DNA of 64,000 nucleotides, taken from an uncultured Flavobacteriaceae bacterium (GTDB lineage: Bacteria; Bacteroidota; Bacteroidia; Flavobacteriales; Flavobacteriaceae). Position numbers and translations under genes: made by a program. Under the pieces are notes generated by a model. It searched no databases, was not told where the DNA came from, and worked only from the letters and a program-made list of their open reading frames with translations. The stretch lies in the NCBI GenBank assembly GCA_947486785.1, contig CANKUU010000011.1:1-64000 (forward strand), read 5' to 3'. Every line of letters starts with the position of its first letter. Position 1 is the stretch's first letter. Shown here piece by piece: positions 54,717-57,061 of this stretch.

Positions 54717-55145
54717 ATGATTATTAACATTTTAAGTCTAGAAACGTTAACCAGTAAAACTCAAGATCAAATCACCAAATTGTATCGGCAGTTAAATGCT
54801 GATAACAAGCAACGTAGTTTATTTGAAATTTTACAAGCTAGCAATAATGTTTCCGTTTTTGCAGCTATTGCCGACGATTGTGTAGTAGGAATTGCAATCT
54901 TATCTACTTACAAAGTAATTTCAGGATACCGAGGCATGGTAGATGATGTAGTTGTTGATGTCTCGCAACGTGGTAATGGTATTGGCAAAAAATTAATGCA
55001 AAGATTGTTGAAAGAAGCAAAACTCATGGGTTTAGATGAAGTTTTTCTTTTTACTGGTCATCATCGTAAACCGGCTATCTCTTTATACACCAGTCTAGGT
55101 TTCACATTACGAAAAAGTGGACTGTATAACCTTACTATTAATTAA
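54717..55145 (+). CDS. GNAT family N-acetyltransferase
   Basis: The protein is 142 aa. The acetyl-CoA binding motif QRGNGIGKKLMQRLLKEAKL follows DDVVVDV, and GLDEVFLFTGHHRKPAISLY with TSLGFTLRKSGLYNL gives motif B. It is the size of a single-domain GNAT. The substrate is unknown. Its 3' end overlaps the end of the S24 repressor gene by 4 bp on the opposite strand, so the two mRNAs overlap tail to tail. It diverges from the channel gene. Confidence 0.88.
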   Translation: MIINILSLETLTSKTQDQITKLYRQLNADNKQRSLFEILQASNNVSVFAAIADDCVVGIAILSTYKVISGYRGMVDDVVVDVSQRGNGIGKKLMQRLLKEAKLMGLDEVFLFTGHHRKPAISLYTSLGFTLRKSGLYNLTIN

Positions 55146-55906
55146 CTTGCCTGTTGTTTATTAAACTGACGCTTTAAGTCTTCCATTGATTCTTGAAGCT
55201 GTTTTAAAAGACCTGTTTCTGTAGTCGCATCAACACCAAAAGTAATTTTACTACTTACCTCCCATATCTCTTGAATTTGAAATGGTTTAATCTCGTAAGG
55301 TGGATAGGTTTCATTTAAGGATATTAAAGTGACATTATTTGAGTTCGGTTTACGAATTACTTTTTTAACAAGAACCGAGTCTTCAAGTACAACTACATAC
55401 ATTTTATTCGGGTTTACTTGATCGATATGTTCAGTAGCTTTTGCTAATACCCACTCCCCTGGTTTTAAATTAGGCAACATACTATCGCCTTCTACTTGAA
55501 AACCTCTGTATGTAGCATTTCTAAATTCTGGTAAAGGCAAATCAAAGGCGGGCAACTCTTTATACCAAGAAGAATCTTGAATATTCTGTGGATATCCTGC
55601 CGCAGCTTTAGCGTTTACTAAAACCATATTCTCCTTATCCGCTGAATCTACCGTAACTACTTTAGGAATAACGCTTGTGTTTGAAGTGGAAAGCGTTTTA
55701 TTCTCATCCTCATTAAAAAGCCACAAAGGATTAATTTTAAACTGTTTTAAAAGTTCTGCAACTACTTTACCCGAAAGCTTAGTTCGTCCACGCTCAATAT
55801 CTGCGGTAGTGCTAGCTACACCCAAACGCTTTGCAAACTCGGCCTGTGTAAAACCAAATTCTCGTCTTATTTCGATAAAGCGTTTTAAAGTTATTTCATT
55901 TTCCAT
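55142..55906 (-). CDS. XRE/S24 LexA/CI-like self-cleaving repressor
   Basis: The protein is 254 aa. An N-terminal Cro/CI helix-turn-helix (FTQAEFAKRLGVASTTADIE, about residues 19-38) is followed by a linker and an S24 peptidase domain. The parts of LexA/CI self-cleavage are all present: an Ala-Gly bond at 103-104 (KAAAGYP), the nucleophile Ser142 in VEGDSMLPNLKPGEW, and a catalytic Lys near 181-182 in LEDSVLVKKVIRKP. It therefore probably loses DNA binding on RecA activation. The divergent region upstream holds five 17-bp palindromes that overlap its own promoter and that of the DUF4130 gene, so it likely represses both. Confidence 0.9.
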   Translation of the reverse strand: MENEITLKRFIEIRREFGFTQAEFAKRLGVASTTADIERGRTKLSGKVVAELLKQFKINPLWLFNEDENKTLSTSNTSVIPKVVTVDSADKENMVLVNAKAAAGYPQNIQDSSWYKELPAFDLPLPEFRNATYRGFQVEGDSMLPNLKPGEWVLAKATEHIDQVNPNKMYVVVLEDSVLVKKVIRKPNSNNVTLISLNETYPPYEIKPFQIQEIWEVSSKITFGVDATTETGLLKQLQESMEDLKRQFNKQQAS

Positions 55907-55981: not shown

Positions 55982-56011
55982 CAAATATACATATTTTGGA
56001 TTATTTCCAAA
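55982..56011 (-). promoter_or_regulatory. Promoter of the S24 repressor gene, overlapped by operator 1
   Basis: On the minus strand, TTTG (56011-56008), an 18-bp spacer, then TATATTTG (55989-55982), an exact -7 box. Operator 1 covers the -33 box and most of the spacer, the arrangement expected for autorepression. The ATG is at 55906, about 75 bp downstream. Confidence 0.6.
55995..56011. promoter_or_regulatory. Operator 1 palindrome
   Basis: TTTGGA-TTATT-TCCAAA, a perfect 6-bp inverted repeat with a 5-bp spacer. It overlaps the -33 box of the S24 repressor gene. Confidence 0.7.
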
Positions 56012-56017
56012 TATTTA

Positions 56018-56034
56018 TTAGGATATATTCCATA
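56018..56034. promoter_or_regulatory. Operator 2 palindrome
   Basis: TTAGGA-TATAT-TCCATA, with arms of the TNNGGA/TCCNNA type. Its centre is 23 bp from operator 1, about two helical turns. Confidence 0.65.
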
Positions 56035-56230
56035 AATAATATTTTCGACTACATCAGAAAGACTTCAATCAAGAGTCTTTAAGAAGAAACAGAGCTTAAA
56101 AGGGTGTTATATTTAGATATGAACAGTATTACTAAAACGTAATTTCTAATTTCTAGCCCATTTAAAATACTTCAAAGCTCCACTTTATGATACCTCTCTA
56201 TTGTTTACAAACCTATTAAATTTCATTTTA

Positions 56231-56247
56231 TTTGGAAAATTTCCAAA
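56231..56247. promoter_or_regulatory. Operator 3 palindrome
   Basis: TTTGGA-AAATT-TCCAAA, perfect arms. First of a close cluster of sites before the DUF4130 gene. Confidence 0.7.
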
Positions 56248-56252
56248 TAAAA

Positions 56253-56269
56253 TTAGGAATATTTCCATA
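56253..56269. promoter_or_regulatory. Operator 4 palindrome
   Basis: TTAGGA-ATATT-TCCATA. Its centre is 22 bp from operator 3. Confidence 0.65.
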
Positions 56270-56270
56270 T

Positions 56271-56287
56271 TTAGGAATTTTTCCATA
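56271..56287. promoter_or_regulatory. Operator 5 palindrome
   Basis: TTAGGA-ATTTT-TCCATA. Its centre is 18 bp from operator 4. It ends 3 bp before the -33-like TTTG of the DUF4130 promoter. Confidence 0.65.
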
Positions 56288-56289
56288 TT

Positions 56290-56319
56290 TTTGGAATATT
56301 AACAGATATATATAAATTG
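56290..56319 (+). promoter_or_regulatory. Promoter of the DUF4130 gene with a half operator
   Basis: TTTG at 56290-56293 begins a half site (TTTGGA-ATATT, second arm AACAGA). After a 19-bp spacer, TAAATTG at 56313-56319 serves as a degenerate -7 box. The ATG is at 56342. Repressor bound at operators 5 and the half site would block the -33 region. Confidence 0.45.
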
Positions 56320-56341
56320 TAATCATTTAATAGCAGACACT

Positions 56342-57061
56342 ATGAAAAATGCAAAAATTTTAATGTATGATGGAAGTTTCAACGGTTTCTTATGTTGCAT
56401 TTACAAAGCCTTTGACGAAAAAATACAAGTCGCTGACATTCAGAAAAAAGCAGTTGTTCAAAATGGATTGTTCTCAGATTCTGAAACTATATTCACTACT
56501 ATGAACCATGCTAAATCGGTTTGGAATGGTATTCAAACAAAAAGTCATATCGCTATTCGTAATATCTATTTTGCGTTTCTAAGTGAGCAAAAAGGAATTG
56601 AATTTATTCTTTATAAGCATATTAAGAAGCTATTCTCTCCGTCATACCTACTTTCCTTAAATTTTACGGATGATTTAGAATCAAGAATAGTAAAATTGGC
56701 TAAAAATGTAGGCAAAGAAAAACAGCATTTAGAATGGTCTATCCAATTTAAGAAAACAGCTGATGCCATTAATTTTGAAATAATTAAACCAGCCTATGAT
56801 GTTCTACCTTTGATTTCAAGACATTTTAGGTTTCAAATGTCGAATACGCCCTGGGTCATTTATGATTGCAAACGCAACTATGGTTTGTATTATAATTTAA
56901 ATTCGGTAGAATTTATTTCTTTAAAAGCCGACGAAGTTCATAAAAATATGAACTGCACCAATTTAAATCTTAGAGCATTAATGATGAGAAAGCTACCTAC
57001 ACCTAAACTATCAAAGCCTACATTAAGATCAGAGTATTCGTATAGTCAGGCTGCAGTTTAA
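56342..57061 (+). CDS. Lone DUF4130 (TIGR03915-like) DNA metabolism protein
   Basis: The protein is 239 aa. MYDGSFNGFLCCIYKAFDEK at the N-terminus, a central AKSVWNGIQTKSHIAIRNIY, VGKEKQHLEWSIQFKKTADA, NFEIIKPAYDVLPLISRHFR and WVIYDCKRNYGLYYNLNSVE match the family normally paired with a radical-SAM protein and thought to act in DNA repair. Here no radical-SAM gene is adjacent. The usual C-terminal end (IKxRxNxxLxxxxxPKRYWKYL) is absent; instead the last 40 residues are basic and Ser/Pro-rich. It may therefore be a specialised or decaying paralogue. Palindromic operators upstream place it under the divergent S24 repressor. Confidence 0.8.
   Translation: MKNAKILMYDGSFNGFLCCIYKAFDEKIQVADIQKKAVVQNGLFSDSETIFTTMNHAKSVWNGIQTKSHIAIRNIYFAFLSEQKGIEFILYKHIKKLFSPSYLLSLNFTDDLESRIVKLAKNVGKEKQHLEWSIQFKKTADAINFEIIKPAYDVLPLISRHFRFQMSNTPWVIYDCKRNYGLYYNLNSVEFISLKADEVHKNMNCTNLNLRALMMRKLPTPKLSKPTLRSEYSYSQAAV

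Follow-up and report, generated by a model that had tools for sequence, protein, structure and literature searches.

A putative LexA-type SOS switch facing a DUF4130 gene without its radical-SAM partner in an uncultured Flavobacteriaceae bacterium

The window, a stretch of 64,000 nucleotides (64 kb) from the genome of an uncultured Flavobacteriaceae bacterium (GCA_947486785.1), carries a non-canonical LexA-type repressor gene that diverges from a gene for a stand-alone DUF4130 protein. This arrangement is probably an SOS-type LexA switch acting on a DUF4130 gene that was left alone after the loss of its radical-SAM partner. The unusual part is the target and not the switch. Judged from sequence, the switch is an already known one, as both the repressor and its GGA-N5-TCC operators match the published non-canonical LexA.

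Repressor, operators and further targets

The features of the locus are as follows.

55142..55906, minus strand: non-canonical LexA-type repressor with HTH_3 and Peptidase_S24 domains, 254 aa (Pfam, 51.7 and 34.4 bits)
55995..56011, no strand: operator O1, TTTGGATTATTTCCAAA, repressor side; its core is the published GGA-N5-TCC box
56018..56034, no strand: operator O2, TTAGGATATATTCCATA, repressor side; exact pattern match
56035..56230, no strand: spacer of ~200 bp that divides the operator array in the window genome
56231..56247, no strand: operator O3, TTTGGAAAATTTCCAAA, first site of the canonical array; exact pattern match
56253..56269, no strand: operator O4, TTAGGAATATTTCCATA; exact pattern match
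56271..56287, no strand: operator O5, TTAGGAATTTTTCCATA; exact pattern match
56290..56295, plus strand: half site TTTGGA, 19 bp past the start of O5, with equal spacing in most scanned relatives
56342..57061, plus strand: stand-alone DUF4130 / TIGR03915-type protein, 239 aa, over both curated cut-offs

The gap between the divergent genes, from the gene end at 55906 to the gene start at 56342, spans 435 bp. The initial annotation had placed five palindromes and a half site in it, and a pattern scan recovers them at the same positions, with exact TNNGGA-N5-TCCNNA sites starting at 55995, 56018, 56231, 56253 and 56271. The 64-kb window contains six exact matches, five of them in the gap, against an expectation of 0.55 (100 dinucleotide shuffles; sd 0.82, maximum 4). 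When one mismatch is allowed, the window gives 12 matches for 17.8 expected, and the loose pattern across the genome gives 23 forward matches for 31 of the reversed control. As neither shows an enrichment, it is the clustering of exact sites that constitutes the signal.

The right-hand group of sites is the canonical array of three sites and a half site. Its spacing, 22-18-19 from O3 through the half site, is the same as in relatives, and exactly three sites, usually with the half site next, are present at 27 of the 36 lone loci of the survey presented below. The O1/O2 pair looks like a partial second copy of the array, ~200 bp away. The array of the four nearest lone relatives (L154-L157) is compact, with three sites and no spacer, so that the window differs from them by one extra site pair and the ~200-bp spacer. 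The spacer at 56035-56230 resembles a partial array duplication with an insert. A visual check of the listed ORFs around the repressor and DUF4130 genes revealed no phage-like gene.

The canonical LexA winged HTH (PF01726) is absent from the Pfam matches of the repressor up to an E-value of 1. A103-G104, S142 and K181 are kept in 67 of 67 aligned repressors, which bears out the earlier remark that the Ala-Gly bond and the Ser/Lys dyad are retained. The nearest relatives of the repressor are 75-85% identical, and most of them adjoin DUF4130 or a TIGR03916-DUF4130 pair; relatives of its neighbour gene, DUF4130 (among the best 80 of 417), are labelled Flavobacteriaceae, Maribacter, Cellulophaga and Zobellia. 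The same repressor type also occurs without DUF4130 in the fetched stretch at nine loci (L101-L103, L105-L110), where it faces other genes or none obvious. For at least two of those nine, the radical-SAM-DUF4130 pair is found elsewhere in the genome (G100, G087).

Bacteroidetes S24 repressors with an HTH_3 domain have been described, including a group that binds GGA-N5-TCC and belongs mainly to Flavobacteriaceae (Sanchez-Osuna et al. 2021, PMC8565304). For the member from S. agarivorans, that study reports binding by gel shift (EMSA) and mutagenesis, and induction by mitomycin C. Among the targets predicted there for the group are dinB-dnaE operons, splB and SRAP, as well as an operon of two genes, COG1573-COG4277, which is presumably equivalent to the TIGR03915/TIGR03916 pair. 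The SOS-like switch proposed from the sequence of the window was of the right kind, in repressor family, in operator and in the binding and induction known from S. agarivorans, but it was not new, since the switch had already been published (PMC8565304).

In the genome of the window, a Y-family polymerase gene, one of two PF00817 genes, is preceded by two sites, TATGGAATAAATCCATT and TTAGGAAATATTCCAAT, 19 bp apart, the nearer one ~30 bp before the start codon. It is followed by a PHP-domain ORF, as expected for a dnaE-type gene, and in this it resembles the published dinB-dnaE target (PMC8565304). A SRAP gene was not found in this genome. Two relatives have this repressor type opposite a polymerase gene (L104) or a SRAP gene (L117). 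The loose pattern marks 27 distinct places genome-wide, 11 of which were inspected. One perfect-looking site (C2:118633) was rejected, as it forms, by eye, the stem of a terminator-like hairpin; five other inspected pattern sites (L112-L116) all lie inside ORFs.

The lone DUF4130 gene and its missing partner

DUF4130 has been predicted to be a mutagenesis-related enzyme and has been linked to SplB-like radical-SAM proteins and uracil-DNA glycosylases (PMC3765255). The protein of the window scores above both cut-offs of its family models (135.3 for 112.25 bits and 67.2 for 27 bits). The family-model match is limited to positions 1-196 of 243: the C-terminal part is rewritten, with the terminal dipeptide AV kept (57053-57058). 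PKRYWKYL and two further motifs of the partnered type, KHRMEAF and RYADQ, are absent. The altered C-terminus noted in the initial annotation is real, and the lack of the partner is borne out as well: TIGR03916 was not found in the window genome (draft, 136 contigs, 99.8% complete), a state which recurs in the 36 lone genes of the survey.

This survey covered 396 Flavobacteriaceae genomes, with TIGR03916 in 101 and TIGR03915 in 137. Wherever TIGR03916 was found, in all 101 genomes, the DUF4130 match scores 249 bits or higher. In the 36 genomes where DUF4130 was matched but TIGR03916 was not, an absence judged on draft genomes, the scores reach at most 218 bits, and the matches mostly end near position 195. 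G132, with a fragment only, is counted as one of these 36 genomes but contributes no lone gene; the number of lone genes is also 36, as G256, a genome with partnered and lone copies, adds its second copy. The complete radical-SAM-DUF4130 pair of G256 has no repressor in the fetched stretch, and its separate lone DUF4130 faces the repressor (L134/L153). All 36 lone genes are divergent to this repressor type; for partnered pairs, the repressor is not adjacent at five of the 23 fetched survey loci (L104, L117-L120). G050, the one other searched genome of the genus of the window, carries a complete unit whose repressor shares 85% identity with that of the window. Further relatives were obtained with an alignment query against genome contigs, the best 80 of 417 being kept; a single-protein query found none. 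Alignment A2 holds 36 of 37 DUF4130 proteins (L087 out), and alignment A4 holds 18 of 23 radical-SAM proteins.

Partnered and lone proteins are separated by three motifs. KHRM[ED]AF, RYADQ and PKRYW[KQ]YL are present in 66, 65 and 64 of 68 partnered proteins, respectively, and in 21, 20 and 23 of a second partnered set of 23, but in none of the 36 lone proteins. Going by this pattern, the three lost motifs are candidates for the enzyme-facing surface of DUF4130. A YDGSF-type motif is kept in 34 of the 36 lone proteins. The C-terminal AV is found in 20 of 36 lone proteins, 49 of 68 partnered ones and five of the 23 of the broader partnered set; this terminal dipeptide could be a degradation tag or a docking end.

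The DUF4130 gene of the window is under purifying selection, with a pN/pS of 0.27-0.29 relative to its four nearest relatives (64-67% identity, synonymous sites near saturation), all of which are also lone. Eight pairs of lone survey genes gave values of 0.12-0.45, with synonymous sites near saturation in most, and all 36 lone frames are open and at least 205 aa long. The window protein is 32-57% identical to 13 lone proteins, compared with 55-82% for the repressor in the same comparison. The loss of three motifs and the fast divergence of DUF4130 would also fit a relaxed function.

Between sister loci, the missing enzyme gene appears as a clean gap. L172 and its sister L171 are 82-84% identical in DNA on both sides of a segment of ~1.2 kb with the enzyme gene, which is missing from L172, and L172 retains the last enzyme codons, QQLSLF, just before DUF4130. 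Similar gaps of ~1.3-1.4 kb are found in L195/L231 and L200/L220, giving three sister pairs with 82-89% DNA identity flanking the missing gene. For ten loci without the radical-SAM gene, nine genomes (that of L195 not included; completeness not stated) were searched, and TIGR03916 was found in none of the nine. A repressor tree of 76 rows requires at least 15 switches between presence and absence of the enzyme, six of them forced by strongly supported branches. This tree took 20 of the 80 loci of the relatives set, and 11 repressors with no DUF4130 next to them were not included; the count is rough because the search was quick, many branches are weak and gains are indistinguishable from losses. 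In related bacteria, absence of the partner is a recurrent state. Four loci without the radical-SAM gene, all outside the 396-genome set (L172, L193, L195, L200), still have a high-scoring DUF4130, so the change in DUF4130 would follow the loss of the enzyme and not always accompany it.

A structure of the window DUF4130 was predicted by AlphaFold2 with a pLDDT of 88, low after about residue 218. In the PDB, Foldseek ranks the PAP phosphatase 8a8k first (E 4.7e-4, TM 0.44); RecJ, family II pyrophosphatase and Cdc45 are among the weaker matches. PAP phosphatase, RecJ, family II pyrophosphatase and Cdc45 share the DHH fold. The likeness to DHH phosphoesterases is a lead and not a classification, the TM-score by query length being at most 0.44, for a fold-similarity threshold of >0.5, and a PDB sequence search with the same protein giving nothing credible. 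Literature searches, covering titles and abstract openings of open-licence papers, turned up a single paper that names DUF4130, but no functional study of the TIGR03915/TIGR03916 pair and no description of lone DUF4130 genes or of the mini-protein presented below.

A mini-ORF in the place of the enzyme

At 18 of the 36 lone loci, and additionally at L178, a mini-ORF of 53-75 aa occupies the position of the radical-SAM gene. It starts 37-50 nt (median 45) past the first position of the last operator, and its end falls anywhere from 6 nt short of the DUF4130 start codon to 4 nt inside it (18 of 19 with a readable gap). In complete loci, the distance of the enzyme ATG to the last operator is 41-46 nt in 27 of 52, 18-21 nt in 24 and 62 nt in one. 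Seventeen of the 18 survey mini-ORFs were chosen by their C-terminal motif; L139 (IQPSLF) and L178 were added by eye, and the short ORF of L172 ending in QQLSLF was left out of the set. Among the 18 lone loci without a mini-ORF, three have an ORF of at least 30 aa in the gap, and none has the motif. The window is without a mini-gene, the mini profile giving no match in its genome up to an E-value of 1.

Both ends of the mini-proteins resemble the ends of the enzyme. The N-terminal pattern I-x2-KL-x2-LA-x2-G-x2-D follows the register of the enzyme's RIKEKLNILADAAKYD, and the match was not used for selection. Scored in fixed register with a profile of radical-SAM proteins (the 75 of 91 matching a regular expression), the mini N-termini reach a mean of 15.3, compared with -7.1 (sd 7.8) for 568 control N-termini, and 14 of 19 lie above the 99th percentile of the controls. 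This control is conservative, because the control set includes one or more sequences with a very high score, perhaps from an unmasked enzyme. The C-terminus carries Q[LFP]xLF in all 19 mini-proteins, which is not independent evidence, as 17 of the 18 survey members were chosen by this motif. In the enzyme, QLxLF lies among the last 16 residues of all 68 proteins in one set and close to the C-terminus of all 23 in the survey set.

QL[S/D]LF, or more generally QxxLF, is a common clamp-binding consensus, as in PolC (PMC12309361). The QLxLF present in 68 of 68 flavobacterial TIGR03916 proteins (L083 and others) is of the sliding-clamp type, and such an end would place the TIGR03916 enzyme at the replication fork. 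All 19 mini-proteins have a positive net charge, and the four that were scanned have no match in Pfam or NCBIfam. In six mini pairs, pN/pS is 0.10-0.49 for the N-terminal 22 codons and 0.27-1.15 for the linker, the latter being rough as the alignments have 10-83% identity; the two regions hardly differ in L136/L138 and L048/L141. The AlphaFold2 model of the radical-SAM protein has a pLDDT of 59.6, too poor to judge N-terminal docking.

Among 149 genomes, the mini profile, made only from mini-proteins, gave seven strong matches (E 6.6e-13 or better), all at the repressor-DUF4130 locus, and 60 weak ones. Twenty-two of the weak matches fall on the ends of enzyme genes, 18 on the N-terminus and four on the C-terminus. 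The other 38 lie elsewhere. Among them are ten matches to a different kind of ORF, 929-962 aa long, and also the two top-scoring weak ones (G135, E 0.007; G045, 0.044). An intact radical-SAM operon together with a separate mini homologue was not found as a strong match in these 149 genomes. From these resemblances, the mini-ORF is apparently the radical-SAM enzyme reduced to its two docking ends.

Interpretation and comparison with known systems

In the proposed mechanism, DNA damage would lead to RecA filaments that trigger the cleavage of the repressor at A103-G104. This would induce DUF4130 together with the remaining regulon, including the translesion polymerase gene elsewhere in the genome. 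The ancestral target would have been an operon of radical-SAM (TIGR03916) and DUF4130 genes, and the radical-SAM gene would have been lost from between the promoter and DUF4130. Afterwards, DUF4130 would have lost residues kept in partnered proteins, its core staying under purifying selection. Since the enzyme is lost and the core is under such selection, DUF4130 probably works alone, as a DNA-metabolism factor induced by the SOS response. The deleted enzyme would live on in many relatives as a co-directional mini-protein, with an N-terminal helix predicted to dock on DUF4130 and a C-terminal QLxLF predicted to dock on the sliding clamp.

The same locus could be read in other ways. The initial annotation saw a private switch controlling DUF4130 only, and the strict pattern indeed gives only four sites in the genome, two of them in the gap between repressor and DUF4130. 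The third, however, forms a pair with another site just before the polymerase gene, and the fourth lies inside a coding ORF. The private regulon is rejected because of the two sites before the polymerase gene, and it would be very surprising if it were correct after all. More plausible than this, although still unlikely, is a decaying relic, in which DUF4130 became jobless after the loss of the enzyme, is drifting and is kept only because the deletion is recent. The loss of the three motifs in all 36 lone proteins, a divergence faster than that of the repressor and the fragment in G132 are as such a relic would have them. The selection values speak against drift, both for the window gene (0.27-0.29) and for the eight lone pairs (0.12-0.45), synonymous sites being mostly near saturation, and so do the 36 open frames of at least 205 aa, the kept operator arrays, the YDGSF-type motif in 34 of 36 lone genes and the terminal AV in 20 of 36.

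Horizontal transfer of the lone form, replacing a complete operon, would account for the way lone and complete forms are interspersed among the repressors of the tree (15 or more changes, six forced) and for G256, which has both copies. The three sister pairs with 82-89% DNA identity flanking the missing enzyme gene argue against it, as do the mini-ORFs, which resemble the enzyme's own two ends where the enzyme would stand, and we give transfer little credence. An equally improbable reading takes the mini-ORF as an unrelated small gene or a leader peptide and not as a remnant of the radical-SAM gene. The match covers only ~20 N-terminal and five C-terminal residues, five of 19 N-termini score no higher than the 99th percentile, and 38 of the 60 weak profile matches, among them those of G135, G045 and the ten long ORFs, lie elsewhere. 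Chance resemblance sits poorly with a distance to the last operator similar to that of the enzyme, with an identical register from the Met and with the 22 weak matches at either end of the enzyme gene. The SOS-type switch on a DUF4130 gene left by deletion of its partner is the preferred explanation.

Lone, mini-plus and complete forms occur under one repressor type and one operator type, side by side in several survey genera (e.g., g1, g19 and g148), and represent a natural subtraction. By comparing them, one can test which half of the pair is responsible for damage repair or tolerance, which residues are turned towards the enzyme and whether a clamp tether can be all that is left of an enzyme. 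A wider and more tentative idea, to which we give somewhat less than even chances, is that an SOS-controlled radical-SAM repair enzyme of flavobacteria has repeatedly been stripped to a DUF4130-binding helix and a clamp-binding peptide, or lost, with DUF4130 as the true effector at replication forks without radical chemistry. The mini-proteins would then form a previously undescribed family of clamp tethers that are induced by damage. The tether model is not directly applicable to the window, as the window has no mini-ORF; the window would be the end point where even the clamp tether is gone.

Compared with the published non-canonical LexA (PMC8565304), the system of the window shares the HTH_3 and S24 domains, the Ala-Gly and Ser/Lys residues, the occurrence in Flavobacteriaceae, the GGA-N5-TCC operators at its own promoter and a site-bearing polymerase gene. 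The divergent target reported there is the COG1573-COG4277 operon, whereas in the window it is a lone DUF4130 gene; binding and induction were shown for S. agarivorans, and the switch of the window is known from sequence. With the repair-linked TIGR03916-TIGR03915 operon (rSAM_link_UDG / SAM_7_link_chp), the locus has in common the DUF4130 domain over both cut-offs, and partnered relatives, including G050, have the same repressor type and operators. It differs in that the radical-SAM gene was not found in its genome and its DUF4130 lacks PKRYWKYL and the two further motifs. Clamp-binding proteins such as PolC (PMC12309361) resemble the radical-SAM enzyme in the QLxLF near its C-terminus and the mini-proteins in their terminal Q[LFP]xLF, a likeness of motif only.
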